Part shown: piece after piece, positions 6,721-38,618 of the stretch
How positions within the stretch are numbered: position 1 is the first letter of the stretch
Layout: each line of letters begins with the position of its first letter
NCBI RefSeq assembly: GCF_022808815.1
Contig: NZ_JAKZLC010000004.1
Span: 1 to 64,000, forward strand
Length of the DNA stretch: 64,000 nucleotides
Source of the DNA: Geothrix paludis
GTDB lineage: Bacteria; Acidobacteriota; Holophagae; Holophagales; Holophagaceae
Reading direction: 5' to 3'
The notes under the pieces: generated by a model
What the model saw: the letters and a program-made list of their open reading frames with translations, nothing else
Databases searched by the model: none
What the model was told of the DNA's origin: nothing
Position numbers and translations under genes: made by a program

Positions 6721-6740
6721 ACCCAAGACTTCAACAACCT

Positions 6741-6877: not shown

Positions 6878-6886
6878 GATGTGGAG

Positions 6887-8607: not shown

Positions 8608-8778
8608 CACGGAAGCTCCTGGGTCGTCCTGCGTCGAAGGTGGAGTGTGCGGGATCCGCGACCCACCCGTTTGTTACGCCGAGTGCGGTTGAGACGAGTC
8701 GCCCAGGTCTTCATGAAGCCCCCGTCACCAGGAGATGGATGAGTCCTTGGGAATCGCCTGGCACCGGCCGGGTCGCCG

Positions 8779-9576
8779 TCATCCAAGAAAGGACCCGCCC
8801 GAGACGTCCAGGTACTGGCCCGTGATCCAGCGGCTGTCGGGACCAGCGAGGAATGCCGCCGCATCAGCCACCTCCTCGACCGTTCCCACTCGGCCGAGGG
8901 CGGACAGGGATTCCACGTAGCGCCGGTTCCCGGAGTCGCTCAGCAGTTGGGCATTCATGTCCGTATCGATGACGCCTGGGGCGAGCGCGTTCACCGTGAT
9001 ACCGCGTGGACCGAGTTCCTTCGCCAGCAGCAGGCTCAGCGTGTCGATGGCCCCCTTGGTCATGGCGTAGGCCGCCTCCGGAGGGTAGGCCATGCGCGTC
9101 ACCAGCGAGGACAGGTTGATGATCCTGCCGCCGTCGCGGAGCCTGGGGACCAGGGCCTGCAGCAGGAAGAAGGGAGCCTTCACGTTCACCGCGAACACTT
9201 CGTCGAAGGCGGCCTCCGTCGTCGCGCCCAGAGTTCCCTGGGAGGCGATCCCCGCGTTGTTGATGAGGATGTCCAGCCCGGTGGAACCCAGCCGTCCGAG
9301 GAGCCCTTTCTCCAGTTCCCGGACGAGGCGCTCGATTCCCGTCATCGTGCCCAGATCGGCCTGGATGGCCCAGGCCGCTCCCGAGGCCCCTTCGATCTCT
9401 TCCACCAGGGCCTGGGCGGAGGCCTCCTCGTGCCGGTAGTGGATCACCGTGAAGGCACCTTCCCGGGCCAGGCGCAGGGCGATGGCCCTCCCGATCCCCC
9501 GACTCGCGCCCGTCACCAGCGCGACCTTGCCTCCCAGGCGCCTGCCCTGGATCCCGTATTCCAGCCCTGCGTTCAT
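8779..9576 (-). CDS. SDR family NAD(P)-dependent oxidoreductase
   Basis: A classical short-chain dehydrogenase of 265 residues. It has the cofactor motif TGASRGIG (22-29), structural NNAG (106-109), and the catalytic Ser 156/157, Tyr170 and Lys174 in YAMTK. The C-terminal GQYLDVSGG is typical. It resembles 3-oxoacyl-ACP reductase-like members, but the substrate cannot be assigned. The ATG at 9576 has GGAGCG four bases upstream; the open frame extends 20 codons further without a better start. Confidence 0.92.
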   Translation of the reverse strand: MNAGLEYGIQGRRLGGKVALVTGASRGIGRAIALRLAREGAFTVIHYRHEEASAQALVEEIEGASGAAWAIQADLGTMTGIERLVRELEKGLLGRLGSTGLDILINNAGIASQGTLGATTEAAFDEVFAVNVKAPFFLLQALVPRLRDGGRIINLSSLVTRMAYPPEAAYAMTKGAIDTLSLLLAKELGPRGITVNALAPGVIDTDMNAQLLSDSGNRRYVESLSALGRVGTVEEVADAAAFLAGPDSRWITGQYLDVSGGSFLG

Positions 9577-9855
9577 GATCGCTCCTTCGCTGAGGGAGCC
9601 CGGGAGGGCCCGCCCCCACCGTCCCGGAAAGAACATCGCCCTGCATTCCGATCCTTGCGGCCGTATGCGGGTTGAGATCGGTGCGTTCTCAGACTGGAGG
9701 AGTCAGTCGAAGCGCAGATCGGCCAGGTTCAACCGTCAGCGCTTCGAGGAACCGTCCGATGGAGGCGCTCAGGTCGACTACTGGTTCGAGGAATCCCTGA
9801 CGCCCGGGCGCTGCGGGGATTCCAGCCTCTACCTCGGCGCTGCCCCGATAATCAA
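9577..9855. other. intergenic stretch without recognised content
   Basis: No supported gene, RNA or repeat. It separates the SDR gene from the tRNA-tail repeats at the integration site. Confidence 0.4.
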
Positions 9856-13573: not shown

Positions 13574-14905
13574 TCAGAACTGGACGATTTGAAGGTCACA
13601 GGCTCCAGCCCCAGCCCGACAGGGCAAGCTGTGGATCGGGGGAACCCCCGAAAGCGGTAGGCCGACATGGCCAAGATTCGGTCTCAGACCAGAAGTCCTT
13701 CGTTCTAGGGCGGGCGCCCAACCTGCCGAGCGGTGGTTCGCCTCGGTTGCAGGCAAGGCGTGATTGTAGGTGTTGCCTGGACCAAATGAATAGACAAGTC
13801 GGTTGCCGGGACTACCCGAACACGAAGGCACACGCTTGCTACTCATCCAACCGCCGTGGTGAGGCACCACAATCGCAGAGAAAACCGAACCAAGGACCCC
13901 CGGTATGGCGGAATATCTGGCATCTCCAGGAAACAGGATCTGTTCACCAGACTCGCAATCGTTTACGACTACAGCGAGTCCACTATGATTCGTCCCCTTC
14001 CCTGTGCATTTCCGGATCTCAAATTCTGAGGTCTCTATAGCAGACAGTTGAGACGGCCAAATCAGGATGTTTCCACCGGCAGCTTTCAAACTCTGGACAA
14101 AAGTCCAATGCACTAGACCTATCCGTTGGCGCGGAACTATCCATGTCGCAGATAGCGCTCTTTTGTCACGCAATGCTGATGACCAGTGGTCCCAATCCCA
14201 ATGGGAGAGAATGATTGGCGGATTATTGTAGAAACAGAATTGACTGAGAGAGCCTGGAAAGGTGCGTGCATGTCCCTGCACTCCTCCTCCAAAATCCAGA
14301 TAGGTGAGTACGCTCCCCTTCCTATCAAGAAGCGCACCACAGCTCCCTTGGCCCACATCATAGACAGCCGCCATGTTTATTTCTCTTACCCATATGAGCG
14401 TGTCGACCAGCTCATCATCGGTGGCAGCTCTGTCACCTGCTAAAGAGTAATGGCGAAGCCGCAACAGAGAGTCTCCTGCGACATCCTCCTCGCGAACCAC
14501 ATGCACAGACTCGCTGACTTCCGAGAATAGATTCCAGTAAAGCCGAGGTGATTCATCAGTCGCACCCTTCGAAATAGCTAGCGATAGCCATGGCGCATTC
14601 CGGCGGTGGAACCGAATAAAGGGTAGAAGGTCATGGAAGGGATGATTCGTATCGTCTGCTTGGAATTCAACCTGGAGAATGAAAATGGGCACATTCTCAG
14701 CGAACGATGAATCCGAAGTTTGGCTCTCGTTTGTGATCCAGCGCGCATCGACGCAATCAAAATAGAGACGGTATGTTTCTTCGTCTCCTTCCAATCTTTC
14801 CGACTGATCTAAGTGGGCAAAAACCCGTAAGGGGAGTTCCGGTTTGGGTCCTTCCGTCTGGCCTGATTCAAGAAATGGATTCACGGAATCTCCTGAAATC
14901 GTCAT
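13574..14905 (-). CDS. MBL-fold metallohydrolase, ComEC-like, in defence context
   Basis: A 443-residue protein. The first 170 residues form an unassigned domain. A metallo-beta-lactamase fold then begins with DVGQG (183-187). It continues with the metal-binding HWDWDH (235-240), a distal GDARYSAI strand and PHHGG. DVGQG and HXDXDH are shared with the ComEC/Rec2 beta-lactamase domain, suggesting a phosphodiesterase or nuclease activity; no membrane segments are present. It stands alone between abiE and the replication module. MBL-fold proteins of this general kind occur in anti-phage systems such as AVAST type 1, but no STAND ATPase partner is nearby. The start is uncertain because its GGAG lies 12 bases away. 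Confidence 0.7.
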   Translation of the reverse strand: MTISGDSVNPFLESGQTEGPKPELPLRVFAHLDQSERLEGDEETYRLYFDCVDARWITNESQTSDSSFAENVPIFILQVEFQADDTNHPFHDLLPFIRFHRRNAPWLSLAISKGATDESPRLYWNLFSEVSESVHVVREEDVAGDSLLRLRHYSLAGDRAATDDELVDTLIWVREINMAAVYDVGQGSCGALLDRKGSVLTYLDFGGGVQGHARTFPGSLSQFCFYNNPPIILSHWDWDHWSSALRDKRALSATWIVPRQRIGLVHWTFVQSLKAAGGNILIWPSQLSAIETSEFEIRKCTGKGTNHSGLAVVVNDCESGEQILFPGDARYSAIPGVLGSVFSAIVVPHHGGWMSSKRVPSCSGSPGNRLVYSFGPGNTYNHALPATEANHRSAGWAPALERRTSGLRPNLGHVGLPLSGVPPIHSLPCRAGAGACDLQIVQF

Positions 14906-18496: not shown

Positions 18497-21400
18497 CTAA
18501 GCCACAGCCCTCTGCCGTATGTCCGCCAATACCCCAAGCAGCAGCTCAACTTGCGGTGGGTTGAATACACCCTCCACACCCATCGGATTGATATCCGTGT
18601 AGGGAGATTCGTACAGCAGTGCCGGGTTCATTGCACCGTGTTCAGTTAGGTGATCGATTACCATACCCAAGAAGTCGATCTGACTGGCGTTCAGTGTCGA
18701 GCCCTGAATGAACTCTGCAAAGGCCGCTTTCGCCGCCGCTCGGTCCAGGCCGATCAGTGAGCGCACGAAGAGACCAAGCCCATGGCTTTCCTGCTTGGCC
18801 TTCTCCAGCTCGTCCTCATTACCAAGCCCGGCTTCCCGCAGCATGCGCTCCAACTCCTCCAGATCCATCGCCGTGAGCGGCTCGTTCATGCGCAGGCGGT
18901 GGATGGTGAAGTGGTTCTCGTGGTTGAGGAGGAACTGGCGAGCCTTGGCGCGGAAGCGCTCCATGTTGACGCCCATAGGGACATAGACAGGATCAGAGAT
19001 CTTCTCTTCGCCCAGCTCGTCCGTGAAATCGGTGTAGAGTACCTTCCGATCCACGCGATCCATGAGCTTCACCAGATCCCGCAGCTTCCGGCGGGCCTGC
19101 TCCAGCATGGGCAGGGTGAGCCCCTCCCACCAAAGGTCCGAGCAGATGTCGTGGATCAGTTCCATCTGAGCCGCCACCATCGGGATGTTGCCCTTGGACG
19201 CCAGGGCGTGTGCGATGGCGACCAGACGATCCTGATGCCGCTCCCAACCCGCATCCTTTCGCAACACGGCAAGCTGAAGGTTAAGCACCAACAAATCGAA
19301 ACGCTTGGCCTCTTCGCCTCCATCCTCCAGCCCAGTGGGAAGACCACCCAGGATCTTGATGGCCTCTGGTGTTTCCATGACTGTTACGGCATTCCAGGCT
19401 TCTGGTTTCGAGAATCGCTCCACCAGGCGCAGGTGTGGGCGTACGAGGAAGGATTCAGGATTGAGCGCTGTCACCTGCTGTTGAAGGGAATTCGCCGTCT
19501 CGTCCCTCAGGATCCACTCTGGTTCATTCCCACCCTCGGACACACGATCGCCCAGGACTTTGTCCAAACCAAGGACCAACTCCGTGCGGGCACGGAAGAG
19601 CTGCTGGCCAAGGCTGTCCGGCAGGGGTGACGGTTTGGAGTTGGGATTCTGCCGGAAGTACTCGAAGTTCTCGAAGAAGTCGAAAATCAGGAAGTGGCTC
19701 TTATCCTTGCCGGGGCCAAAGAGGTCCGGACAAAGGCGCGTCCCGCGCCCGATCATCTGCCAGAACTTCGTCTTTGAACGAACCGGCTTGAAGAAGGCCA
19801 GGTTCAAGACCTCGGGCACATCAATGCCCGTGTCCAGCATGTCCACGGAGACGGCGATGTGGGGGGTCTGGTTGGCTTTCGAGAAGGCATCTATCAAGGT
19901 CTGCGCGTAATTGACTTTGAAATCGATCACCTGGGCGAAGTGGCCTTTCAGGTGGGGGAAAAGCTCGTCGAAGCGCTGGACAATGAACTCAGCGTGGGGG
20001 TGATTTCTCGCAAAGAAGATGGTCTTCCCCAATCGGTCTCCACCTTCCACCTTGAGGCCGTGTTTCATGACATGGCCCAGCACCTTGTCCACGGTGTCTG
20101 CGTTGAACAGCCAGTCGTGGAGGGCATTACCAGGGACAGAGTCCGGCACTTCGCCATCCTCCCATTCCAGCGCATCCCAGGCGTCCTTCTCCTCTTCAGA
20201 GAGCTGGTCGTATTTGATGCCTTCGCGGTGGAACTTCAGAGGCACCTCGCGGCTTCGGTATTCCACCAAATAGCCGTCCTTAATGGCCTCCTCCAGCTCG
20301 TAGGCGTCCGTAGGAACGCCCTTCTCCAGGTCGAAGAGCCCGTAGGTGTCCCGGTCCACCTCGTCCCGTGGAGTGGCCGTGAGGCCCACCAGGTAGCTAT
20401 CGAAGTGACGGAAGATGGCACGGTATTTCTGATACACACTCCGGTGCGCCTCGTCGATGATGATGAGATCGAAGTGGCCCGGCCCGAAGCGCCGCTGCCC
20501 GTCCGTCACCTCGTCAATGAGGCCCATCATCGTGGGATAGGTGGAGACATAGATGCGGCCTTCCGTATCCTTGTCTGTCACCAGGTTCACGGGATTGTTT
20601 TCGGGCAGGAACTTCTTGAATGCGTTGATGGCCTGGTTTACCAAGGCCACCCGATCCGCCAGGAAGAGGATCCGCTTGGCCCAGTTGCAGCGCATCAGCA
20701 GATCGGACAGGGCGATCACCGTGCGAGTCTTTCCAGCCCCCGTCGCCATGACCACCAGGGCCTTGCGGTGGTTTTCCTTCTCGAAGGTTTCGCAAATGCG
20801 CCGGATAGCCCGGTGCTGGTATGAACGCTCCACGATGACGGTGTTGATTTCCGCTTCCCCCAAAGGCTTGCGGCTGGTTCGGCGCTGGATGGTCAGCTCC
20901 AACTCGGCTTTAGTCAGGAAGCCCTGCACCTCGCGGGGTGGGTGCTGGGTATCGTCCCAAATCCAGTGCTCGTACCCGTTGGAGTAGAAGATCACAGGGC
21001 GCTGCCCGAAGATCCCCTCCAGGCCATCCGCGTAGAGTTTGGCCTGCTGCTTCCCTTCCTGGGGGCTCTTGGATGTGCGTTTGGCTTCTACCACTGCCAG
21101 GGGTTTGCCGTCGCTCCCCCAGAGCACGTAATCCGCGTAACCCACGCCGCTCTCATTGGGGAAGGGGCGAATTTCGAATTCCCGGTCACGCTCCTGGTCC
21201 AAGGGCCAGCCCGCCTCATTCAGGAGGAGGTCGATGAAGAAGGCGCGGGTTTCGGCCTCGGAATAATCATGGGTATCCGGCACCACCTGGTTCTGGGCCT
21301 TAACCTGGGCGATCTCCGCCCTCAGCCGCTCCAGTTCAGCATCCAGATCCACGCGCGCCTTCTGGGCGGCGGCCAGGGCCTCGTCTTTCTCCGCCAGCTC

Positions 21401-21880
21401 CAGGTTCAACCGCTGGAGCTGGGCCAGGGTTTGCGCCGCCACCTGGGTCACCGGGGGTGGAAGCTCGCTGGCCCGGAATGCCAAATTCTCCGAGGGGCGC
21501 TCTTGTCGGGCATAGGTCCTTGCGAGCCAAAAACCAAGATGGAAGAGATCCCGCACAGCGGCGACCGCATCCTCCACCCGCACCGGCTTGGTGCTGTGCA
21601 CCGCCAGATTGCCCAGATCCTTAATGAGCTTGGCTTTTGCCACCAGGCGCGATTCCAGGAGGCCCTGGAAGGTGGGCTCAAAGATTAAGGCACTCAAATG
21701 GTCCTGGTAGGGCCTTCTGAGCGAGCCATCGTGCTCGTAGAGCCACGTCACCATCAGCTCCAGCGCCCGCCGGGAATAGAAGCACGCCGTGCGGGGATCC
21801 CCCATGACCAAAGACTCCGCCTTGATGGCGGAAGCCGCGATTTGCGGCCATTCGGATTGGAGGAAAACGAAGTGAGTCAT
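18497..21880 (-). CDS. hsdR: type I restriction endonuclease subunit R (EcoEI type)
   Basis: Translocating motor and nuclease subunit of the type I restriction enzyme. Domains in the 1127 residues: a DUF4145-like N-terminus (about 15-120), a coiled coil (145-198), the HsdR nuclease domain with Asp250 and VEAKR (264-268), and superfamily 2 helicase motors. Motifs seen are ATGAGKT (379-385), DEAH, GLTATP and QMIGRGTRL. The C-terminal third matches the EcoEI R-subunit type. It is the last gene of the operon, 26 bp after the DUF262 gene, separated from hsdS by four other genes. Confidence 0.95.
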   Translation of the reverse strand: MTHFVFLQSEWPQIAASAIKAESLVMGDPRTACFYSRRALELMVTWLYEHDGSLRRPYQDHLSALIFEPTFQGLLESRLVAKAKLIKDLGNLAVHSTKPVRVEDAVAAVRDLFHLGFWLARTYARQERPSENLAFRASELPPPVTQVAAQTLAQLQRLNLELAEKDEALAAAQKARVDLDAELERLRAEIAQVKAQNQVVPDTHDYSEAETRAFFIDLLLNEAGWPLDQERDREFEIRPFPNESGVGYADYVLWGSDGKPLAVVEAKRTSKSPQEGKQQAKLYADGLEGIFGQRPVIFYSNGYEHWIWDDTQHPPREVQGFLTKAELELTIQRRTSRKPLGEAEINTVIVERSYQHRAIRRICETFEKENHRKALVVMATGAGKTRTVIALSDLLMRCNWAKRILFLADRVALVNQAINAFKKFLPENNPVNLVTDKDTEGRIYVSTYPTMMGLIDEVTDGQRRFGPGHFDLIIIDEAHRSVYQKYRAIFRHFDSYLVGLTATPRDEVDRDTYGLFDLEKGVPTDAYELEEAIKDGYLVEYRSREVPLKFHREGIKYDQLSEEEKDAWDALEWEDGEVPDSVPGNALHDWLFNADTVDKVLGHVMKHGLKVEGGDRLGKTIFFARNHPHAEFIVQRFDELFPHLKGHFAQVIDFKVNYAQTLIDAFSKANQTPHIAVSVDMLDTGIDVPEVLNLAFFKPVRSKTKFWQMIGRGTRLCPDLFGPGKDKSHFLIFDFFENFEYFRQNPNSKPSPLPDSLGQQLFRARTELVLGLDKVLGDRVSEGGNEPEWILRDETANSLQQQVTALNPESFLVRPHLRLVERFSKPEAWNAVTVMETPEAIKILGGLPTGLEDGGEEAKRFDLLVLNLQLAVLRKDAGWERHQDRLVAIAHALASKGNIPMVAAQMELIHDICSDLWWEGLTLPMLEQARRKLRDLVKLMDRVDRKVLYTDFTDELGEEKISDPVYVPMGVNMERFRAKARQFLLNHENHFTIHRLRMNEPLTAMDLEELERMLREAGLGNEDELEKAKQESHGLGLFVRSLIGLDRAAAKAAFAEFIQGSTLNASQIDFLGMVIDHLTEHGAMNPALLYESPYTDINPMGVEGVFNPPQVELLLGVLADIRQRAVA

Positions 21881-21906
21881 GGCGGAAGGCCTCTGGCAGG
21901 GATGGG

Positions 21907-24498
21907 TCAGCGTCCGGAGGACTCCAATAGAAGGTCGATGGTGGATCGATACAGAGCCGCCATGTCTTCGGCCGCTTGTTCCACGAGATCAGGCGATGGG
22001 TTCATGGCCGGGCGAGAGAAATACAGCCTGGACCAGTTCTGGCCCCAGTTCCGAACGAATTCGATCTGCACGTTGGGCGGAAGTCCCTTTTGCCACTCAG
22101 CGAAGCGCTGCTGGAAATGATCGAGGCGCGGGTGGTTCTGGGAAGCCTCTTTCGATTCAAAGTGGAGTTCGATTCCGAGGCTCTGGCGGGGTCTTCCGTG
22201 GAATCCCCACTCATAGTGCACACCGGAAATGCCTACGGGAATCTGGTGATAGTGCTTGCCGGAAACTGTGCCTGACTTGGCTTGAGGGCAGAGTTCCAGG
22301 AATCGAGCCTGCAGTGCTTCAAAAAAGGCACGATATTCCGCCTTCTGAGCTGAGCCCGAGGGGTTTCTGCCAGTAGGATCCTCAAGTTCGCCGTTTCCGG
22401 CACCACCCACGAATTCGAGCTGCCGTTCAAATGCCTGGCGGATTAAGCCAATGGCGTAGGGGATATCGCCCTCTGTCGCGACGCCCAGCTCAACATCGCC
22501 ATTCCCCCAACGCCCGAGCCCCGTCACGTCGCGGGTCAACCCCCTAGGATCGTCCAACTCGGGATACGGGATGTTGATGGAAAGCAGAAGGCGGCCTGCC
22601 TGGGGAATGATGTCTACGAAGTTCGTTTCGGCCTTATAGGCAATATAGAGCTTCAGGAACTCCTCGTTGACGCAGGCATCGAGGCTGAGGATCGCCTGGC
22701 GGAGCATCTGGAAGAGCCCCTTCATCGCCCCCGTCGCCACATGGGGGTGATCGTCGATGGAGTAGGGCGTGGAAGTGCTTGCCACCTTGCGGGTCAACAT
22801 CGCAATCGTCGACTCATCCAGAACAGGGGCGGTCCACACATTGCAGCACTGATCCGCGAGTTGGGTGGCGCGTTGAAGGATGGCCGCCTCGTTCCAAGTT
22901 TCAAGCAGGCCGATGCCCCGATTCACACGCAAGGGGCTTTCCCGGAATCCTCCTTCCATGTCCCGTTTTTCCGCAAATGGCTTGTCACTGTATTCCGAGT
23001 TGTACCCGGTGAGCGTGAGATTCCCGAGTTTGTGCAGGTAGGTCCCATGGATACGCTGCCAATCCTCTCCCAGTTCTTGCTGCCAAGCTGCGGGCACATT
23101 TTCGTTCTGGGGCATGATGTGCTCAATGGTGTATTCCTCCACTGAGATGGGCTCCTTGCGTCCGTGGTTCTCCAACCGGCGCAGCCAATAGCTGCGGCTA
23201 CGGAAGTGGTACATGTCCCGTTCCTGGAGCTGGCGCTTAAACTCGTCGTTTTTCGGGAAGCGCCTGTAGGAGGGTAGGGTCATGAATTGCGCCCTGAGGC
23301 TGTCCAGATAGCGGTCCTTCTTCAGGCCCTTTGTGAAGGTCGCGAAGGTCTTGTTGAGTGAATTCGTGGGGATCTCGCAGACAGCACGGCGAAACACATA
23401 GCTCTCTATCAGGCGCAGGACCTCCAGGAAGCCCTCCTTGGACAGGAGGCCCTGGTCGTAGTCCGCATAGAGCTCCAGCAGTAGGGGAAAAGCCACTTCC
23501 ACCTTCAGCTCCCTTAAATCCTTGAAGGCTGCCCGCAGGCCTGGATCCGGCTCGGTATGCAGGGCCATTCGGCAGAAGTAGGAAGCGTGGGTCCGGATGT
23601 CCTTCACCAGAGCCTCGACCCCCTCATCTCCCGTCTCGAAACTCTGGGAGTACTGCTTGAACTCCCGGTAGACATGCTCTTCTTTCGGGATGACGCCTGT
23701 CTTGACGGTTAGGTAATGCCGCATGAACCCATCGAATTCCTCGGAGTACGCGCGCTGACCAAACTCCCGCTCCATGGGCCGCCAGTAGTGCTCGTAAAGC
23801 CGCTTCTGAGGCGCCCAGTCGAGACTCATCAGGATGAAGTTCCGGATCAGATCGGCCTGGCTCAACTCTAGGCCCGTGGAGTTCATGCTCTCGAAGATGA
23901 GCTGTGGGTTGTCCTGGTCCCGGTCCAGGGAGATGTCCACCACCATGAGCTTGGCCAGACCTTCGCAGATGGCCGAGAGTTCATCGGAGGCCTCGGTAAT
24001 CCAGGAACGAAACAGGTCCAGGTTCTCTTTCACCCGGATTGAGTGTTCCTGCGGCAAGGGCGTCCCACCCACCAGGGCGGTCAGCGTGGCCGTATCCGTT
24101 TGCGACAGGAGAAGCTTGAAATAGCGCTCGCCCTCTTCTTCCGCGTTAACCAGGTAGTAATGCCGCAGTCTCCTTGCAGAAAAACCCTCGATCGGTTCTG
24201 CGGTGCCTAGAGCCTCGGCCAAAGCCAGGATGAGGAGCGACACCGTAGTGAGCCGTTGCTGACCGTCGATCACCAACAGGGGCGACTGGGTCGTCACGGA
24301 GTACAGGCCCTGCTCCACGTAGACGATGGAGCCAACGAAGTGGCCCGAAATTTTGTTGCTTCGCCCTGCCTTCAGGATGTCATTCCAGAGCTGGCGGCAT
24401 TCCCGCTCCGTCCACGAATAGGAGCGCTGGTAGATGGGAATCACGAACTGGGGAGACTTCTTTAGGAAGGCCAGGAGCTTTGCTTCGACAGCTTTCAT
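21907..24498 (-). CDS. DUF262/HNH (GmrSD-like) nuclease with C-terminal DUF4268-like domain
   Basis: An 863-residue predicted nucleotide-dependent nuclease. The N-terminal DUF262 (ParB-like) domain has IYQRSYSW (22-29) and DGQQRLTT (78-85). A helical middle leads to a DUF1524 HNH domain with EHIMPQN. The C-terminal 150 residues, with YHQIPVGISGVHYEW, resemble DUF4268. GmrSD, BrxU and SspE share DUF262 plus HNH and attack modified DNA; that activity here is inference. The start at 24498 lies 4 bp after the DUF429 stop. It sits inside the Hsd operon, which is unusual. Confidence 0.82.
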   Translation of the reverse strand: MKAVEAKLLAFLKKSPQFVIPIYQRSYSWTERECRQLWNDILKAGRSNKISGHFVGSIVYVEQGLYSVTTQSPLLVIDGQQRLTTVSLLILALAEALGTAEPIEGFSARRLRHYYLVNAEEEGERYFKLLLSQTDTATLTALVGGTPLPQEHSIRVKENLDLFRSWITEASDELSAICEGLAKLMVVDISLDRDQDNPQLIFESMNSTGLELSQADLIRNFILMSLDWAPQKRLYEHYWRPMEREFGQRAYSEEFDGFMRHYLTVKTGVIPKEEHVYREFKQYSQSFETGDEGVEALVKDIRTHASYFCRMALHTEPDPGLRAAFKDLRELKVEVAFPLLLELYADYDQGLLSKEGFLEVLRLIESYVFRRAVCEIPTNSLNKTFATFTKGLKKDRYLDSLRAQFMTLPSYRRFPKNDEFKRQLQERDMYHFRSRSYWLRRLENHGRKEPISVEEYTIEHIMPQNENVPAAWQQELGEDWQRIHGTYLHKLGNLTLTGYNSEYSDKPFAEKRDMEGGFRESPLRVNRGIGLLETWNEAAILQRATQLADQCCNVWTAPVLDESTIAMLTRKVASTSTPYSIDDHPHVATGAMKGLFQMLRQAILSLDACVNEEFLKLYIAYKAETNFVDIIPQAGRLLLSINIPYPELDDPRGLTRDVTGLGRWGNGDVELGVATEGDIPYAIGLIRQAFERQLEFVGGAGNGELEDPTGRNPSGSAQKAEYRAFFEALQARFLELCPQAKSGTVSGKHYHQIPVGISGVHYEWGFHGRPRQSLGIELHFESKEASQNHPRLDHFQQRFAEWQKGLPPNVQIEFVRNWGQNWSRLYFSRPAMNPSPDLVEQAAEDMAALYRSTIDLLLESSGR

Positions 24499-24502
24499 GG
24501 AT

Positions 24503-25210
24503 TCAACCTTCGGGCGTGAGAGAGGGTTGGGGCCACCAATAATGCGTGGGTCCCAGCGGACAGATCCTTGCACCGCAGCGTGGATCTTGGAGGCTGTGAA
24601 GGTCCAGGGCCCATTCGCCATTAAGAGCGCGCAAGGCGGGAAGCAACGAGAGGGCGGCGTCGAAAGGGTGGTCCTGGTCGCCGAAGGAGATTGTGGATGG
24701 GTCGAGATTCAGTTCTTGAAGGAGCCATGCGGCCATGGCCTCGCGCTGTTCGGCCCATGCGTGCTTCCGGCCCGTGAGGGCGTAAAAGAGCACTTTGGGA
24801 TGGGCCTCTGTGATCCAACCGCCGTCCTGCACCAGACGCGGGCGTAAAAGGGTCAGAAAAGCCATGCCACCGACGGGCATGGATCCGAAGATGGAATTAG
24901 GCGCCGCCACACTGTTCTGCACCGTCGGGTAGGCACGGCGCAGCCAGCGGTCCGCCGGGCGCCAACCTGCCGAGCCGCCGTTCCATTCCGTAAGAGTGTC
25001 TACTCCAATGGCAAGGAGGGGCCCATCCAGAGTATGCGTCTGCACCCATTCCGCAGCTTCCTCCAGGCAGCGGCTGGAAGCGAAATGGAGCCCCTTGACA
25101 CGCCATCGGCCATCCTCTTGGTGTACGGCACATGCCGCAACGCCATGGGCGCCGTCCCCGCCGGGGTCGTAACCAACTATCCAGGCCTGAGAGTGAACAC
25201 TGGGGGTCAT
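24503..25210 (-). CDS. DUF429 family predicted RNase H-like nuclease
   Basis: A 235-residue protein resembling DUF429, predicted to have an RNase H fold. Acidic residues sit at the expected places: GYDPGG near 13-18, GVDTLTEW near 69-76 and DHPFDAALS near 180-188. Other conserved pieces are PNSIFGSMP and ITEAHPKVLFYAL. The ATG overlaps the stop of the upstream gene (ATGA), and its stop is 4 bp before the DUF262 gene, so it belongs to the restriction operon. Its substrate is unknown. Confidence 0.7.
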   Translation of the reverse strand: MTPSVHSQAWIVGYDPGGDGAHGVAACAVHQEDGRWRVKGLHFASSRCLEEAAEWVQTHTLDGPLLAIGVDTLTEWNGGSAGWRPADRWLRRAYPTVQNSVAAPNSIFGSMPVGGMAFLTLLRPRLVQDGGWITEAHPKVLFYALTGRKHAWAEQREAMAAWLLQELNLDPSTISFGDQDHPFDAALSLLPALRALNGEWALDLHSLQDPRCGARICPLGPTHYWWPQPSLTPEG

Positions 25211-26013
25211 CCACGCCCCCCAAAGTCCGTCGGAACACAGTTATCTAACTTTCGATGCAACATGGATAGGAACGTCAGGTAGTCGGCGGCATCGTCCTCA
25301 CCCTGCCAGAGAATCTTCGGGCCATGGGCAATGGGGTTCCGGATCGCTCCGTGGGCACCCTTCAGGAGCATGGCGAAGCCCTTATGCTCGGATTGCTCTG
25401 TCTCGGTCCGCAGCGTGTTGAAGGCGAGGTGGGGGCGTTCACTGGAGAACGCCTTATCCACCAGGGCAGCGCCATCCAGCGAGAGGCCTGACATCTCGCG
25501 GATCCGCTGGAATAGGCCCTTCACTGCCTCGAAGACGGCGTGAAAGTAATTCTCCTGGAGTAGCTCGGCCCGGCAGTATCTGGTTACTTCAGGGTGAATG
25601 GGCCGCCCGTGCAGCTTGGAGCGCAGAACCCGAGCACGTTCCTCCGCCTCTGGGATGGTCTTGGCAGCTTTCACCGGACGGAACTCCCCATCTGCACCGA
25701 AGTCCAATCCCGCAAAGGCGAGGACCGCATTGAGTTCCCGACGATGGGCATCGAACTCGTCCTGCCTTCCCACGAAACGGGAGGGGCTCAGGAAGGTGCG
25801 AATGAAGCTCAGAATGTGGTTTGCACACCGGTCCTGCGATTGCCTGGCCATGAATAGGGCATAGAGCCGCTTCCACTTAGTGGATTCGCCGGAATCGTCC
25901 TCCCATCCGCAACTCGCAATGATGCGAGAGATGTCCGTACCAGAGCCGCACTCCCCAAGGACCTTTGCCAAGCCTTCGAGGAGTGATGCGGGGAAGCACG
26001 GAACGGCGCTCAT
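25207..26013 (-). CDS. TIGR02391 (Ymh) family protein, HEPN-like
   Basis: A 268-residue protein whose C-terminal half matches the TIGR02391/Hypoth_ymh family. YFHAVFEAVKGLFQRI is followed by a GAALVDKAF segment and by GAHGAIRNPIAHG. The RNPIAHG motif resembles the RxxxxH active site of HEPN ribonucleases, which suggests RNA cleavage or nucleic-acid sensing; this is inference. The N-terminal 100 residues are unassigned. The start at 26013 lies one base after the upstream stop. The longer open frame upstream is only the antisense of that gene. Confidence 0.7.
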   Translation of the reverse strand: MSAVPCFPASLLEGLAKVLGECGSGTDISRIIASCGWEDDSGESTKWKRLYALFMARQSQDRCANHILSFIRTFLSPSRFVGRQDEFDAHRRELNAVLAFAGLDFGADGEFRPVKAAKTIPEAEERARVLRSKLHGRPIHPEVTRYCRAELLQENYFHAVFEAVKGLFQRIREMSGLSLDGAALVDKAFSSERPHLAFNTLRTETEQSEHKGFAMLLKGAHGAIRNPIAHGPKILWQGEDDAADYLTFLSMLHRKLDNCVPTDFGGRG

Positions 26014-26014
26014 C

Positions 26015-26845
26015 TCATCGCCCCTGATAAACCGCGTCAGCGTCGATCTGGGTGGTGAGGTAGGGCGTAAATCCCGCAAGCAAAATGGACACCACGACCA
26101 AGTCCCGCATCTCCATGGAGCGGAGTGAACCACCCCGGCTCCCTCCATGGCGAATGCCCGGATAATCAGACGCAAATCCGTAGAGGCTCGAAAGAGAAGC
26201 CCGAACCGCCTTGTGCGGCCATGTGGTTATCTGGCCGCAGATCTGCCCAAGATCAGATCCTGTGACATCGGGATGTGTCTGTCCAAGGGCCTCCAGGAGG
26301 TTTACCTGTCTTTGAATGCAGGTCTTGATTCGCTCATCGGAGCAATCAATGCGCAGGTCCCGAATGCTGTTGTCGTAGGCCCGCATTAGGTTATGGAGAT
26401 GTTCATCCTGGCTCGTCAACTCCCGAAGCTGATTCACCAAACTGGCAAAAACACCGGGGAGTGTGGGGCACAGCGTGCACGGGCGCCGCAGGTCATACCT
26501 CAGGCTGAACTTCTGAATGAAGATCTCCAGCAGGTTGAAATAGCTATTAGAGAGAGGGTCACCACCTAGGTCGTCCAGCACATCGTGAGCCGATTCCAGG
26601 AAGGCCAGCAACGCTCGCTCTCCCTTGAATGCTTCGCAAGGCGTCCGCTGAAAGGCCTCCGTACTGATGGCGGAATCATCCACAATGTCCGCCAGCGCCT
26701 CGACGCCTGGTTCTTCTTTCATGGCACGGGCCAGTTCACGAAACAGCTCACAGAACAGGTCTGAAGGCGACTCCTCGTGGGCCGACAGAGGCTCCCAGAT
26801 CCAAGTCCAGGTTTCCGGCCAGACGCTGATGAATTCACCCTGCAT
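26015..26845 (-). CDS. abortive-infection-like protein (Abi_C type)
   Basis: A 276-residue protein. The last 60 residues (LSSLYGFASDYPGIRHGG then MRDLVVVSILLAGF) look like the C-terminal domain of Abi proteins, which is HEPN-related; GIRHGG could hold catalytic Arg and His. A CxxC-containing segment (PCTLCPTLPG) lies mid-protein. The ATG at 26845 is 2 bp after the hsdS stop, so it is the first of the four extra genes. Function is inferred from the domain and the defence operon only. Confidence 0.6.
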   Translation of the reverse strand: MQGEFISVWPETWTWIWEPLSAHEESPSDLFCELFRELARAMKEEPGVEALADIVDDSAISTEAFQRTPCEAFKGERALLAFLESAHDVLDDLGGDPLSNSYFNLLEIFIQKFSLRYDLRRPCTLCPTLPGVFASLVNQLRELTSQDEHLHNLMRAYDNSIRDLRIDCSDERIKTCIQRQVNLLEALGQTHPDVTGSDLGQICGQITTWPHKAVRASLSSLYGFASDYPGIRHGGSRGGSLRSMEMRDLVVVSILLAGFTPYLTTQIDADAVYQGR

Positions 26846-26847
26846 GG

Positions 26848-28029
26848 CTACAGCTCCCCCCGAAATGCTCGGTACTGGAGGGAGGCGAAAAGGGCGTCGA
26901 AGTGAGCGAGGGAACGGCGATGTTCAGTCTTCATGTGATCCACCAGGTCCATCCGCTTCGCAAATACCTCCTGCAAGGCCATCGGTGGAAGCAGCAGGGG
27001 AAATCCTCGGAGCTGCGTCATGTTGATGCTGGCAATGCCGGTCGTCTGCTTGGCTGACTTGAGGAAATAAGTCTTTCCGCGTCTGCTGCCAACAAGCCAG
27101 TTGAGGAACAGTGGATGGACCACTCGCGATGTCAACCGCACCCTGAATACGTGATTCTGATGGATGCACTCAACCACTTCACCATGCCAAAGAGAGCCTC
27201 GCCCCAGCTTGTCGGGGTCACCTCCCTCCGTCAACAATAGGTCGTTCTTTTGAAGTCGAAACCTAGCTATCTCAACTTCCGTGGCTTCAGTGGATTTGAG
27301 AACATCTAGCCGTATCTCCCGATCTTGCACGTTCACAACAGCCAGGTATGGCACTTCGCGAGTTGCGAGCCCATCCAGGTTTCTACCTATCGTGATACCG
27401 GACACAATATCGGCCACATCACCAAGAGGCGTCGTATCTGGCCATCCCATTGAATTCGCCACAGGATCACCAAACGTCTCGATGAAAATACTCTGAGCGA
27501 GGGTGTCGAGCTTGGCAAGGGCAGTGCGACGCTTGGCCCGGAGAACCTCGACCTGATCCAGGATCGCCGCGATACGACGCTGTTCTAAGAGGGGCGGGAG
27601 AGGGAGAGAGAGTTGCTCGAATTTTGACTTGCTAACAATTGCCACAGTGGTAGCGGGCGCCATCCCTACGAGCTTTTTCTTGAGTAATCGACATGCGTGG
27701 AACCCGTATCTCGGCCAGACTAAGTCCTCGTTGAATACAATCGAATTGATTTGCTGGTTTGTCGCGAGAGGTTGTCCCGCAATTCCAACCTTTCCAAGGG
27801 AACCGATGCAGCAAACCAATACGGCCCCCTGTGGCAACATCCTCGCAACGCTCTCGCCCGCAGCGCTGATCGTTCTCTCTGCCTTAGTTATGGGGTCGAA
27901 ATGGTCCAATTCCCCAGGAGTTACAAAGGGAATATTGCCACCCCAAAGGGAGTCATCTGCCGTGGAAGGTGTCGACCCCGTGTACACGGTCCCTAGATCG
28001 GCAATCGGATGCGAAGGCCATGAAGTCAT
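26848..28029 (-). CDS. hsdS: type I restriction specificity subunit S
   Basis: Determines the bipartite DNA target of the restriction-modification complex. The 393 residues contain two target-recognition domains (about 1-150 and 200-340). They are separated by the conserved LPPLLEQRRIAAILDQ helix region and end with a second spacer helix (ALQEVFAKRMDLVDHM). The ATG overlaps the hsdM stop by four bases (ATGA). Length is normal and no truncation is seen. Confidence 0.93.
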   Translation of the reverse strand: MTSWPSHPIADLGTVYTGSTPSTADDSLWGGNIPFVTPGELDHFDPITKAERTISAAGESVARMLPQGAVLVCCIGSLGKVGIAGQPLATNQQINSIVFNEDLVWPRYGFHACRLLKKKLVGMAPATTVAIVSKSKFEQLSLPLPPLLEQRRIAAILDQVEVLRAKRRTALAKLDTLAQSIFIETFGDPVANSMGWPDTTPLGDVADIVSGITIGRNLDGLATREVPYLAVVNVQDREIRLDVLKSTEATEVEIARFRLQKNDLLLTEGGDPDKLGRGSLWHGEVVECIHQNHVFRVRLTSRVVHPLFLNWLVGSRRGKTYFLKSAKQTTGIASINMTQLRGFPLLLPPMALQEVFAKRMDLVDHMKTEHRRSLAHFDALFASLQYRAFRGEL

Positions 28030-29561
28030 CCCAGCATCCCCTCCAGCTCTGCCATCCCGTGCTGGATCTCGACTTCTAGCCTCTTCAGTTCCGCCATGAT
28101 CTGCTTGGGGCTTTCATGTTCCACGGCCTCATGTACCACTTCCTTGTGGCGGTTGAGGCTTAAGTCGTACCCCTTGGCTGCGAGTTCGGCCTTAGGCACG
28201 CAAAAACTCTGGGCCGTGCGGTCCCGTTCCCTCTCGGTGGTGGTCCGCTGAATCCAGCGAGTGAGGACATCAGGCAAGTTGTTTTTGGTGTGCTCCGCCT
28301 CGGTAAGACCTGTGGCCAAGGCGCCCAGCTTCTCCTCGTCAAGCAGCGGATTTCGCTTATCGTCCAGGCTCCAGCCATCGGCCTGCATATCGTAGAACCA
28401 GACGTGATCCGTGCCGCCACTGTTGGTCTTGGTGAAGATGAGGATGCCGCAGGAGACGCCCGCGTAGGGCCGAAAAACGCCGCCGGGAAGGCTAATGACA
28501 GCTTCTAGCTTCTGGTCCTCCACCAGCATCCGCCTCAATTCCTTGTGGGCCTTGCTGCTGCCGAAGAGCACGCCATCGGGCACGATGACAGCCGCCCGCC
28601 CACCGGGCTTGAGCAGGCGCAGGAAGAGGGCCAGGAAGAGCAGCTCGGTCTTCTTGGTCTTCACGATGGCCAGCAGGTCCTTGGCGGTGCCCTCGTAGTC
28701 CAGGCTTCCTGCAAAGGGTGGATTGGCCAGCACCAGGGTGTATTTTTCGTCCTCCCCCGCGTGATCCTGGCTGAGGCTGTCCCGGTAGACCACCTCGGGG
28801 TTCTCCACGCCATGGAGCAGCAGGTTCATGCTGCCGATGCGCAGCATCGTGTTATCGAAATCGAAGCCGTGGAAGAGCTTGTGGTGGAAGTGCTCTCGGA
28901 GCTCCGGATCCCGCAGGATCTCGGGATGGCGCTGTCGCAGGTATTCGCCCACCGCCACCAGGAAACCGCAGGTACCCGCCGCCGGATCGCATACGAGGTC
29001 CGTGGGCTTGGGCTCCATCAACTCCACCATGAGCTGGATGATGTGGCGCGGCGTACGAAACTGGCCGTTCTGCCCGGCGGTGGCAATCTTGCCGAGCATG
29101 TATTCGTAGAGGTCGCCCTTGGTATCCCGGTCCTCCATGGGCACCTTGTCAATCATGTCCACCACCTTGGCCAGCAGATCGGCCTTGGGGATGGTGAATC
29201 GGGCGTCCTTCATGTGGTGGGCATAGGTGCTTTCGTCGCCACCGATCCTTTGCAGGAACGGGAAGACATGATCAGCCACCACGCTAAACATCTCCCGCGC
29301 TTCAAAATTCTTGAATCGCGACCAGCGCAGATCCGCAAAGGGGCGCCCCTTAGGGTCGTTGTCATCCGGGAAGATGCTCCGCTCCATGGGCTTACCAAAA
29401 CGGTTGGCCTTGAGCTCCTCCACCGTGTGCAGATCGTCCAGCCGCCGTAGGAAGAGCAGGTAGGTAATCTGCTCGATGACCTCCAGGGGGTTGCTGATTC
29501 CACCCGTCCAGAAGGCGTTCCAAATGGCATCGACTTGGTTGCGGATCTCGCCTGTGAGCAC
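28026..29561 (-). CDS. hsdM: type I restriction adenine methyltransferase subunit M
   Basis: N6-adenine methyltransferase subunit that protects host DNA and forms the core of the restriction complex. The 511-residue product has an N-terminal HsdM_N domain, the SAM-binding CDPAAGTCGFLV and catalytic NPPF in LANPPFAGS. I place the start at GTG 29561: it begins the conserved LTGEIRNQVDAIWNAF and has GGAG seven bases upstream. The frame is open 41 codons further with no conserved sequence. It is first gene of the seven-gene leftward operon. Confidence 0.94.
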   Translation of the reverse strand: MLTGEIRNQVDAIWNAFWTGGISNPLEVIEQITYLLFLRRLDDLHTVEELKANRFGKPMERSIFPDDNDPKGRPFADLRWSRFKNFEAREMFSVVADHVFPFLQRIGGDESTYAHHMKDARFTIPKADLLAKVVDMIDKVPMEDRDTKGDLYEYMLGKIATAGQNGQFRTPRHIIQLMVELMEPKPTDLVCDPAAGTCGFLVAVGEYLRQRHPEILRDPELREHFHHKLFHGFDFDNTMLRIGSMNLLLHGVENPEVVYRDSLSQDHAGEDEKYTLVLANPPFAGSLDYEGTAKDLLAIVKTKKTELLFLALFLRLLKPGGRAAVIVPDGVLFGSSKAHKELRRMLVEDQKLEAVISLPGGVFRPYAGVSCGILIFTKTNSGGTDHVWFYDMQADGWSLDDKRNPLLDEEKLGALATGLTEAEHTKNNLPDVLTRWIQRTTTERERDRTAQSFCVPKAELAAKGYDLSLNRHKEVVHEAVEHESPKQIMAELKRLEVEIQHGMAELEGMLG

Positions 29562-29733
29562 AATCAACTCCAGATCTATCCCTAGCAAAGGCAAGAGGTA
29601 TTCAGCATATTCCCATGGTTCATCCCTTTTCGGTTGGTATCCTCTGCAGCAAGAACCGACACCAGTGGACATGGGGGGGATCACCCAGGCCTTGGTTTCA
29701 CGACATCACATCAGAGAGACTCAAGGAATGCCA

Positions 29734-31638
29734 ATGCCTACGGACCAATTAGGCCATCTATCTTCCACCGTTCCGGGAGATGCTTGGCACGCCTCTTGGT
29801 CCTATGTCCGTCTACTGTTGCTCCAACCGCAGGTCAGAGTCGAAGGACTATGGAAGCTCGGGGACAAGTTCTACGCTGTGTGCCCGGATCTCCCCAGGGG
29901 GCTGTTGGCGAAAAATGGCGACCCGCTAGACACCTGGTTCAAAGACAACAAAGCCATAACCTGCCCGATCAGCCTCGCAGCCTCCATTCCAGAAGGTGGG
30001 TTGAAGATCCTAGAGCAACAAGCCGCAGACTTGGCGATGCTCCGGGGGACTCCGCTAACAATTCATGATGTAAATGTGCAGTTGGCAATCCTCTTGCCGA
30101 AGAGTTTTCCTGATTTCACCTTTGACGACCTGCCACCTGAAAAAGGCTTTGTGTTTGTCTCAAGGGAACTGACACACGAAGAAACATCGGTAATCCATGG
30201 GACCTTGAAACCCTTTTTAGTTGGTCTCCCACTCCGTGTTGAAGTGGTGGTCGCACCGAACCGCTTCGTTAGTGCTGAGGCTGCTGTCCCCGAAATCCCT
30301 TCTTCCAATGGGCTCAACCTGCTCCCGGCACGGTGGCTGAATCCAACTACTCCAATACCCATCCGCCAGGCAGTAGAGGAGGACGACGATTTTTGGGCTT
30401 CTCGCCATGTTGAGATTCTCAGTGGGCCGTCAGCCGACCCGAAGGATTGGTTAGGTAATGGAATTCCAATAGATGGGTCGAGGTGCTTAATTGATGCGTC
30501 AGTATTGCCCCCGCGCAATATCCGAACCAGCTTGGCCCTGTTCCGCTATGTCACGCTCGTAGCCCCACTCAGAGACCACCACGATATTGCACTGAAGGGA
30601 TTGGCAATCAGCGAAAGTGACCTCATTGAACTAGCTCATCGCGGCCGAATTCAGGTTCTGTTTCCACAGCCTATAAATCGCTACTCCACTGGCTTCCTGG
30701 AGAGACTATTCGAACTGGACAGCAGGCCATACATCCTGTCAAGGCGTCTCGCTGCGGCCACGGTAGCAGACGCCCGAAGGCGAATGCCATTGCTTTACCC
30801 TCCTGTTGGAGTAGCTGAAAGAAGAATCTTATTAGAATTACTCCAAATGGTTCAAGACAACGCTCCGGCACCATGGCGAGAAGGGCTGATTACTGGACTT
30901 GGGGAATCCTGGACATCCGCCGAATACGCCCTGCACTCCAAGGGGGCTATGGCGACCTCCCTGAATGGATTCGGACGAATCCTAGGCGAGATGGTTCGGA
31001 GAGAGACTGGGAAGGACTTACTGCTGGAGCTTCTCTTCTCCTCCATGCCCGTCGAGTGGGCAGGGGCTTTGGGTGCCACGATCATGCCGGTAGGGCTGGA
31101 GAATGAAGGTCCACAAAAGATGGCGGAGTTTTGTGCCAGCGCATACTCGGGCGCGGTCACTGGCACTCAGCTGGCTTCCATCGGAACTGTCGAAGCAGTG
31201 TTGGAAGAGGTGCTTGCGCTGGAGGGCGATGCCCCAGTTCGAGAATTAGATACAGCATTTAGTCCCCGGGATATCTCGCAACTGAACGATCTGGTCTATG
31301 GAATCGTGAGAGGTAATTTGACTGGCCAGGACCTTAGAAAGGCGGTTCGAGATTTGAACGACAAGGTCAGGTATTACAACTCCAGCACTAAACGGGTGGC
31401 ATGGCTAAACCTCATGGCTCCGACGGGGGCTCTCGCAACGTACGCACTGACGGGAAATCCAGGGGGCGCGACGTTCGTTGGACTGGGGTCCTGGCTGTTG
31501 GGACTGATGGTGAAGGATCTCGACGCAAGTCGGCATCCTTGTGGTGGGCTTATCGATTGGGTCCGTAGTGTCAACGCCCGTACTACTCCAGATGTCGTTC
31601 TAGTGAGTCGGCTAAAGAAAGCCATTAAGGAAGGGTGA
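29734..31638 (+). CDS. unknown 634-residue protein divergent from the hsd operon
   Basis: I do not recognise this family. It starts at ATG 29734, with AAGGA six bases upstream. The sequence is globular, without clear nucleotide-binding or nuclease motifs. One moderately hydrophobic glycine-rich segment lies near the C-terminus (about residues 557-592), followed by a basic tail. It shares a 170-bp divergent control region with hsdM, so it may be expressed with the restriction operon. A defence, immunity or sensor role is suggested only by position. Confidence 0.6.
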   Translation: MPTDQLGHLSSTVPGDAWHASWSYVRLLLLQPQVRVEGLWKLGDKFYAVCPDLPRGLLAKNGDPLDTWFKDNKAITCPISLAASIPEGGLKILEQQAADLAMLRGTPLTIHDVNVQLAILLPKSFPDFTFDDLPPEKGFVFVSRELTHEETSVIHGTLKPFLVGLPLRVEVVVAPNRFVSAEAAVPEIPSSNGLNLLPARWLNPTTPIPIRQAVEEDDDFWASRHVEILSGPSADPKDWLGNGIPIDGSRCLIDASVLPPRNIRTSLALFRYVTLVAPLRDHHDIALKGLAISESDLIELAHRGRIQVLFPQPINRYSTGFLERLFELDSRPYILSRRLAAATVADARRRMPLLYPPVGVAERRILLELLQMVQDNAPAPWREGLITGLGESWTSAEYALHSKGAMATSLNGFGRILGEMVRRETGKDLLLELLFSSMPVEWAGALGATIMPVGLENEGPQKMAEFCASAYSGAVTGTQLASIGTVEAVLEEVLALEGDAPVRELDTAFSPRDISQLNDLVYGIVRGNLTGQDLRKAVRDLNDKVRYYNSSTKRVAWLNLMAPTGALATYALTGNPGGATFVGLGSWLLGLMVKDLDASRHPCGGLIDWVRSVNARTTPDVVLVSRLKKAIKEG

Positions 31639-31739
31639 TGGCCTCCTTCCGAGGCACTGTGCCATAGGTCTTGAGGGCTTCTAGCAACCACCTTTCTTCG
31701 GGAAACCGGCATCTGGCTACTTGTTAAGCAAGCTGGTCA

Positions 31740-32435
31740 TCACCTATCCCACCCATCTGCGGCACGGAAGCTGTGCCAAGTGTCGCGACCGATGACCATG
31801 TGATCCACCAGAGGCACCCCCAGACTCTCGCCAGCAGCACGCATGCGGTTCGTGAGCAGTATGTCTTCACGGGACGGTGTGGGATCCCCAGAAGGATGGT
31901 TGTGCCAAGCCAGGGCCGAGGTGGCACCAAACCGGAGTGCCTCTCGGAAGAACTCCCGCGGGCTGATGAGGCAGGCGGTGGCGGTGCCGTGAGCCAGGAT
32001 CCGGTCGGCGATTAGATCTCCCTTCGCATTGAGGGCCAGCATCCCAAAGCGTTCCTCAGTCCAGCCCTGGATCTTGGGCAACAAATAGGTGCCTGCGGCG
32101 CGGGGGGAAGAGATTCTTGGGCGCTCGAAGCTGCGGGTGGATCGTCGCTGCACTTCCTGGAGCACCGCGAAGCGGGCCATCTCACCCTTCGTGAGCCCGA
32201 TGGTCTGGAGTTCGGCAGGCCCCAGGGCCACCAAGCGCCCCAGGCTCTCGACCTGGCGGAGGATCTCCTCGGCACGTCCAGGGCGGGCGCGATTCAGCAT
32301 GGCCTCGATGATCTGGGCATCGGAGAGAGCTTCCGGCCCATAGAGAGCCACGGTTTCGGAGACAGGAAAGTTCCGAATTTGTGCAGGAACGCTCGCGTTC
32401 GGCTGATCGAAGAGGGGAAGGTTGGAAGAGGTCAT
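31740..32435 (-). CDS. radC: RadC-family JAB/MPN domain protein
   Basis: A 231-residue protein with an N-terminal helix-hairpin-helix-like part (about 30-95) and a C-terminal JAMM metal-binding domain, HNHPSGDPTPS followed by ED. Despite the name, a repair role is unproven; relatives are frequent on mobile elements. The ATG at 32435 has GGAGA nine bases upstream. A hairpin (CGTGCCC/GGGCACG, 32446-32468) lies just before the ribosome site. Confidence 0.88.
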   Translation of the reverse strand: MTSSNLPLFDQPNASVPAQIRNFPVSETVALYGPEALSDAQIIEAMLNRARPGRAEEILRQVESLGRLVALGPAELQTIGLTKGEMARFAVLQEVQRRSTRSFERPRISSPRAAGTYLLPKIQGWTEERFGMLALNAKGDLIADRILAHGTATACLISPREFFREALRFGATSALAWHNHPSGDPTPSREDILLTNRMRAAGESLGVPLVDHMVIGRDTWHSFRAADGWDR

Positions 32436-32499
32436 GGCGTTTCTCCGTGCCCACCGGGTCGGGGCACGAAACGCCGGGGTCCCCCGCTCCCCAGGCCTG

Positions 32500-32595
32500 G
32501 ACCGGGAACGAACCGGGTAACGCAGTGAACCGGGCAGAGAGCGGGTAGGGCCGCTGTGGCGCGGGATCAGGACAACCGGCAGTGCCTGAACCGGA
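32500..32595. repeat. cluster of AACCGG direct repeats upstream of radC
   Basis: AACCGG or ACCGGG occurs five times within 95 bp (32501, 32511, 32528, 32574, 32589), the middle copies as GAACCGGG. No gene is predicted in 32436-32729. The arrangement is iteron-like but irregular in spacing. Confidence 0.45.
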
Positions 32596-32729
32596 GATGG
32601 GCATGCAAAGCCGTGAGTCCATGCCTCCGACTCGAATATCGCCAAGTGCCACAAGAGCTGTTTACCCAAATATCAGGATCTGAATGAACCCGCTTCGCCA
32701 TGGTCGGTGGGCCTGTGAGCTTCTGGCTG

Positions 32730-38542: not shown

Positions 38543-38587
38543 TGGCTCCGGAGGAGGGATTTGAACCCCCGACCTAGTGATTAACAG
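38543..38587 (-). repeat. attR: 45-bp direct repeat in the intact tRNA-Asn
   Basis: Identical to 10068-10112. The element end replaced the tRNA tail without changing its sequence, leaving the gene functional. Confidence 0.93.
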
Positions 38588-38618
38588 TCACCCGCTCTGA
38601 CCCCTGAGCTACTCCGGA
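38543..38618 (-). tRNA. tRNA-Asn (GTT)
   Basis: Reads 5'-TCCGGAG acceptor, D-arm GCTC...GAGC, anticodon loop CTGTTAA with GTT, T-arm GGGGG-TTCAAAT-CCCTC, acceptor CTCCGGA, discriminator G and encoded CCA. Total 76 nt. All four arms pair. It is the integration target of the island. Confidence 0.97.

Follow-up and report, generated by a model that had tools for sequence, protein, structure and literature searches.

The window analysed here, a stretch of 64,000 nucleotides from Geothrix paludis, contains an orphan gene, P0001, which is divergent from an expanded type I restriction-modification (Hsd) operon and convergent with a RadC-like gene. The features of the locus are given below, with the evidence for each in brackets.

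18497-21880, minus strand: hsdR with an N-terminal DUF4145 (profile matches)
21907-24621, minus strand: GmrSD-type, type IV restriction-like gene (profiles; PADLOC Orf5/HEC-06)
24503-25210, minus strand: DUF429 gene (Pfam profile)
25207-26175, minus strand: TIGR02391/Hypoth_Ymh gene (PD-Lambda-3_B match, E 1.9e-72)
26015-26845, minus strand: gene of 276 aa between hsdS and the Ymh gene (weak PADLOC PDC-S32 match, E 1.8e-6)
26848-28029, minus strand: hsdS (similarity)
28026-29561, minus strand: hsdM, divergent from P0001; likely start, in a frame opening at 29684 (similarity)
29723-29727, plus strand: AAGGA, likely ribosome-binding site, six bases 5' of ATG 29734 (direct reading)
29734-31638, plus strand: P0001, orphan gene, 634 aa (ORF list; full-length conservation in relatives)
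30046-30261, plus strand: residues 105-176, small predicted alpha/beta domain with a KH or PrgH-like ring-building likeness (model, VIA)
30376-30396, plus strand: EEDDDFW, residues 215-221, best conserved of the family's motifs (EEDxDFW), inside a long predicted helix (alignment, model)
30481-30783, plus strand: core residues 250-350, with invariant C251, R264, G304 and R305 and near-invariant N262 and R337 (alignment, model)
31417-31515, plus strand: residues 562-594, Gly-rich, mildly hydrophobic C-terminal segment (sequence; model pLDDT below 50)
31740-32669, minus strand: presumed RadC-like (JAB) gene, convergent with P0001 (motif)
38543-38618, minus strand: tRNA-Asn just past the mobilisation genes, the likely end of an integrated element (RNA gene)

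The P0001 frame is open from 29476 to 31638 on the plus strand, and its start codon is the ATG at 29734. The length of 634 residues is considered sound, because the AAGGA is well placed and the alignments of relatives to P0001 begin at about residues 16-24. Nor is the frame a chance one, since the protein is conserved over its whole length in relatives, at 21-31% identity, and dN/dS values of 0.06-0.21 in 7 pairs of relatives indicate purifying selection. Searches with P0001 gave no match at E ≤ 1 in Pfam, NCBIfam or PADLOC and nothing below E 1.6 among PDB sequences, so that the description of the product as an unrecognised protein, made in a first-pass annotation, holds. The GC3 of P0001 (0.56) is unlike that of hsdM (0.80), hsdR (0.77) and the four flanking non-island genes (0.90-0.95), which points to a separate origin, although hsdS (0.60) is closer.

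The same annotation had placed P0001 about 170 bp from hsdM, across a control region common to both genes. The distance stands if hsdM starts at about 29561, where a candidate GTG lies just before LTGEIRNQ, and falls to about 50 bp if the first GTG of the frame, at 29684, is used. The shared control region comes down to the divergent geometry; promoter-like sites numbered 0 within 29400-31760, with 1.1 expected by chance, and the arrangement is not conserved.

On the right side of P0001 lie RadC-like and mobilisation genes, which we take to be such from their motifs. Because these mobilisation genes and the tRNA-Asn stand together on this side, the region looks like a mobile element integrated at a tRNA. 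A convergent RadC-like gene accompanies the P0001 relative of a second genome of the phylum as well (G177; L101:1493-2008), and RadC-like genes, presumed in part from the same motifs, also occur in the loci L010, L011 and L052. The left part of the element encodes a metallo-beta-lactamase-like protein of 443 aa (13574-14905, minus strand), with a Pfam E of 4.5e-4 that falls below the cut-off.

Relatives were collected by using several searches. Tblastn with P0001 found four records of a plasmid collection, at 23-27% identity; a pattern scan of species genomes retained 14 further loci out of 156 candidate stretches, and one contig of a viral collection carries a family member. Tblastn of P0001 and of the Salmonella member gave no phage record, and broader viral scans added nothing to that single contig. 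The full-length copies were aligned as 16 members, from Vibrio, Photobacterium, Aeromonas, Pseudomonas, two proteobacterial MAGs, Niastella, E. coli, Salmonella, the viral-collection contig and the window; L015 (frameshifted), L016 and L019 (cut) and L004 (a second Salmonella copy) were omitted, and L052, L054, L056, L057 and L101, found later, stand outside this alignment. The copy in L015 (Vibrio sp. Hep-1b-8) is split over separate frames, while relatives elsewhere are intact. One of the records, NZ_OL790696.1 (L002), is filed as an E. coli plasmid, but with 4.8 Mb and 86 annotated features it looks like a chromosome.

The 16 proteins measure 606-636 aa. Invariant positions include E215, E216, D217, D219, F220, W221, C251 and R264, as well as L300, G304, R305, Y317, A340, G404 and D499. 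The alignment was extended to 22 rows by the distant relatives L058 and L059 and four more sequences (one, L101, cut by the end of its contig), and E215, D217, W221, C251, N262, R264, R305 and R337 are kept in at least 20 of them.

All 16 members match the profile phrog_36744 (for P0001, E 6.1e-30 over residues 99-596 of 634); this cluster carries no assigned function and explains nothing. When the alignment was compared with Pfam, NCBIfam and PADLOC, no relevant match was obtained; among the 16 members searched singly against PADLOC-DB 2.0.0, one reached JetA at E 0.001, with nothing else relevant. A search of PDB sequences with the 16-member profile gave a best E of 0.0052, for a protein named OT3, over 71 residues. 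A relation of P0001 to DUF6236 was suspected from a motif; neither P0001 nor the alignment matched DUF6236 in Pfam, and no DUF6236 member appeared in the 41 and 149 genomes searched. In the open-licence full-text literature no paper was found for three protein accessions of the family, for that of the neighbouring integrase or for phrog_36744, and P0001 appears to represent a previously undescribed family. Passages in PMC4219756, PMC3853940 and PMC7767384 do not allow the family relative to be assigned to one of the Salmonella STM275x-276x tags, and a text search of PMC10121019 gave no name for the E. coli site of the gene.

The family is sparsely distributed. In the taxonomic family of the window's own genome, 1 of 77 genomes carries the gene, and the phylum sample has 2 carriers among 396. 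The corresponding figures are 15/329 for the family of a Vibrio genome (G439) and 3/75, two of them distant, for that of Aeromonas tecta (G438). Among complete genomes of E. coli, 189 of 5426 are positive, strains 536, CFT073 and Nissle 1917 included, with one copy each that is always chromosomal. An integrase gene directly precedes the family gene in the four E. coli loci read (4/4), while the cargo beyond it varies between PtuAB Septu, TIR and macro-domain genes, and an AAA ATPase. In Salmonella the gene adjoins an integrase gene, and it is also carried by Salmonella plasmids.

The predicted structure was examined both for the whole protein and for its central part. The full-length model (pLDDT 63.8, pTM 0.65) had no counterpart in PDB or BFVD by Foldseek (E ≤ 0.001), and its sole VIA rows fall at about residues 105-176, where 66 residues superpose on KH and secretion-ring domains with a Z of about 6 and an rmsd of 2.6-2.8, too little to show kinship. 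Residues 196-455 modelled alone reached a pLDDT of 84.6 and a pTM of 0.85; the model consists of the long EEDxDFW helix, a beta-alpha-beta-alpha-alpha-beta-alpha-beta-alpha core and further helices. Against the PDB no chain stands out for this domain, the best values being a VIA Z of 3.7 and a Foldseek E of 0.12, although a weak or missing match does not make the fold a new one. TIR domains (PdTIR 3h16, BtpA 4lzp) stood in the top rows, with a VIA Z of 3.5 over 92-93 aligned residues at rmsd 3.9-4.2, but unrelated folds score equally there, the Z is far too low to be meaningful, and the Foldseek E is 0.84. The structure prediction proposed earlier for this protein models the central domain well and gave no clear fold match in the PDB; nothing in the fold searches supports a catalytic role.

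The setting of the family was evaluated by comparing neighbours with a control. At each of 15 family loci with usable flanks, up to three genes per side were taken, the nearest ones encoding 150 aa or more, for a total of 84 genes; the count left out the window, L003, L004, L005, L006, L015, L016, L019, L020, L058, L059 and L101. The same rule gave 88 control genes when applied to 15 arbitrarily chosen positions, drawn from nine of these genomes. At PADLOC E ≤ 1e-40, at least 12 of the 84 neighbours, in 6 of the 15 loci, are defence genes (IetA and IetS twice each, HamA, HamB, HsdM, HsdS, HsdR, Avs4, PD-T7-3 and PtuA), vs 0/88 in the control (Fisher p = 1.2e-4 by gene and 0.017 by locus). The count of 12 is a lower bound, because it rests on the 25 listed of 60 matched profiles; matches were assigned to L010 from the likeness of that locus to L011, and HsdS was assigned from its position within the operon of L052. 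Because of the kinship between L010 and L011, their IetAS cases are not independent; counted once, they leave 5/14 vs 0/15 loci. At nine of the 15 family loci no PADLOC gene was identified among the nearest genes at this threshold, and the copies of L054, L056 and L018 stand alone among ordinary genes.

Further neighbours fall outside this tally. They are an F-type Cas8/5 gene, some 4 kb upstream in L012, RnlA toxin in L003, PtuB in L002, PP2C and kinase genes in L008, and, in the window itself, the GmrSD and PD-Lambda-3_B matches. Of the two distant relatives, L059 lies beside a retron-type RT and L058 within a tandem run of small genes. The defence setting first proposed for P0001 is borne out by its relatives, which recur beside IetAS, Hachiman, Septu, type I RM, and Avs4 with PD-T7-3. 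In L007 a protein of 1348 aa with an N-terminal helix-turn-helix and no other family (5740-9786, minus strand) is encoded divergently to the family member; it may be a large partner or another island gene.

The extent of the DNA shared between loci was determined by pairwise blastn of whole family loci. For 6 of the 10 pairs, whose contexts differ, the common block is made up of the family gene and a flank no longer than about 370 bp. L056 and L057 share 2229 bp at 95.9% identity, corresponding to the gene plus some 254 bp on its 5' side and 112 bp on its 3' side, L057 being an Avs4/PD-T7-3 array and L056 an unrelated chromosomal place. The block measures 1932 bp for L012/L003, 1864 columns for L017/L018 and 2268 columns, 372 bp of them before the gene, for L005/L020. 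L010 and L011 each have 1835 bp in common with L052, only the family gene being shared at that place; short stretches several kb off, RadC-like genes among them, are common to the three, and their islands are partly related. Among the remaining four pairs, a short contig sets the limit for L006/L007; homology takes in IetAS in L010/L011 and continues for about 590 bp downstream of the gene in L015/L010, and two E. coli loci have island and chromosome in common. Judged from these alignments, the unit that moves appears to extend hardly beyond the gene, and a single gene should therefore suffice for the function of the family.

The place of P0001 next to hsdM had suggested a role within the expanded Hsd operon, as a regulator, a sensor or a further effector, the 170-bp gap then controlling both sides. 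Relatives of the window's HsdR in the phylum sample comprise five full-length proteins at 51-59% identity, another at 37% and one that is divided between contigs. Six hsdMSR regions were read, those of the five full-length relatives and of the 37% one: hsdM, hsdS and hsdR are present in 6/6 and P0001 in 0/6. The GmrSD, DUF429, Ymh and 276-aa genes are likewise absent from all six, and the expanded cassette (18497-29684) is, on gene content, itself composite. Conversely, G177, the other holder in the phylum, has a P0001 relative (39% identical over 408 residues) and a convergent RadC-like gene, with no HsdR match. Co-occurrence with the hsd cassette does extend to one locus beyond the window: in L052, from a Vibrio-family genome, the family gene is the last one of an hsdM-hsdS-hsdR operon, on the same strand and 5 bp after hsdR. 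The HsdM and HsdR of this operon, however, show only 25-28% identity to those of the window over short stretches and belong to another subtype. Hsd genes are missing from the vicinity of most family loci, no Hsd profile recognises P0001, and the GC3 of the gene departs from that of hsdM and hsdR. The comparison of L010 and L011 with L052, where neighbours switch from IetAS to Hsd around the family gene, agrees with the other pairs in that the common DNA ends at or near the gene. P0001 and the Hsd genes are not a conserved pair, and membership of the Hsd unit, though suggested by the divergent gene in the window and by L052, is very unlikely.

The bond with mobile elements might instead mean that P0001 serves the element, by exclusion of rivals, by maintenance or by a toxin-like addiction. 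Its position immediately after the integrase in E. coli islands and beside one in Salmonella, its presence on plasmids and on a viral-collection contig, and the convergent RadC-like gene of the two phylum members are consistent with such a role. No conserved partner could act as an antitoxin, transfer units are little larger than the gene, and antiviral genes are enriched around it, so that a service to the element is unlikely, if not negligibly so. An effector acting on membranes, whose Gly-rich segment would insert and depolarise the cell on infection, is less likely still. The segment noted in the first annotation does exist, at about residues 562-594; the most hydrophobic window lies within the C-terminal 110 residues in 17 of 22 members, and RefSeq names the Salmonella copy 'membrane protein'. 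Yet the best C-terminal 19-residue Kyte-Doolittle mean (1.18 in P0001, 0.93-1.83 in the family) is ordinary for other proteins, two sets of which have median maxima of 1.22 and 1.50; the segment is modelled below pLDDT 50, and the most conserved residues are in the central core and not in the tail. Membrane insertion is accordingly possible, with mild hydrophobicity as its support. The isolated copies of L054, L056 and L018 would fit an ordinary metabolic or housekeeping gene, a reading made scarcely credible by the rarity of the gene in its own family, its single-copy presence in a small part of E. coli, its atypical GC3 and the lack of NCBIfam, Pfam or PDB matches.

P0001 is probably best regarded as a stand-alone, horizontally moving single-gene defence module in the cargo of mobile elements, whose place by hsdM reflects clustering within an island. 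Residence in an island alone is no proof of defence, because islands also carry virulence and metabolic cargo; the argument for a stand-alone defence gene is drawn from the gene-sized transfer, the changing defence company and the lack of a conserved partner. PD-type genes such as PD-T7-3, and others in PADLOC, are likewise single island-borne genes, of unrelated sequence; PD-T7-3 is a near neighbour of the family member in L057, whereas P0001 matches no PADLOC model. A more specific version, to be held tentatively and with somewhat less than even confidence, is that the family comprises new single-gene antiviral effectors with a fold outside the PDB, which spread through Tn7-like elements, islands, plasmids and a prophage-like contig in cassettes of a single gene. 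The predicted fold of such effectors would combine the EEDxDFW helix with a small alpha/beta core bearing invariant Cys and Arg and a near-invariant Asn.

As a stand-alone module, P0001 would most likely suffice on its own to protect the cell, or the element, against phage or rival elements, sensing and acting in one polypeptide, probably by abortive infection. With less assurance, an N-terminal sensing part (residues 1-200, with the small KH-like domain) may control the central alpha/beta core. The residues conserved in this core, which are acidic, Cys, Asn and Arg (EEDxDFW, C251, N262, R264, R305, R337), suggest that it could bind or cut a nucleotide or nucleic acid, an attack that might in turn lead to abortive infection. 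The C-terminal helices and the Gly-rich segment may serve for assembly or membrane contact. If the anti-phage role that we infer is correct, a gene of 189 E. coli genomes, of Salmonella plasmids and of vibrios would be antiviral and missed by PADLOC-DB 2.0.0; the conserved core residues are ready targets for mutation.

A separate observation concerns the array of L057 (G567:C1:260600-280500), where a recurring joint, TTTCTGTCC, 6 nt, GAG(T/C)TAGCT, is found on the minus strand at about 16583, 8953 and 6793. The joint is also present in L107, L108, L110, L111, L113 and L115; some copies add a matching GCTAACTC arm, then TGCCCC, and many share further sequence just upstream. It sits behind several island genes, namely the family gene and a two-gene unit that precedes PD-T7-3, and also close to Avs4. 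The exact pattern occurs in 4 of 324 genomes of that Vibrio family, vs 0 for the reversed control, and the joint resembles the right-hand end of small cassettes or mobile units with one or two genes each.
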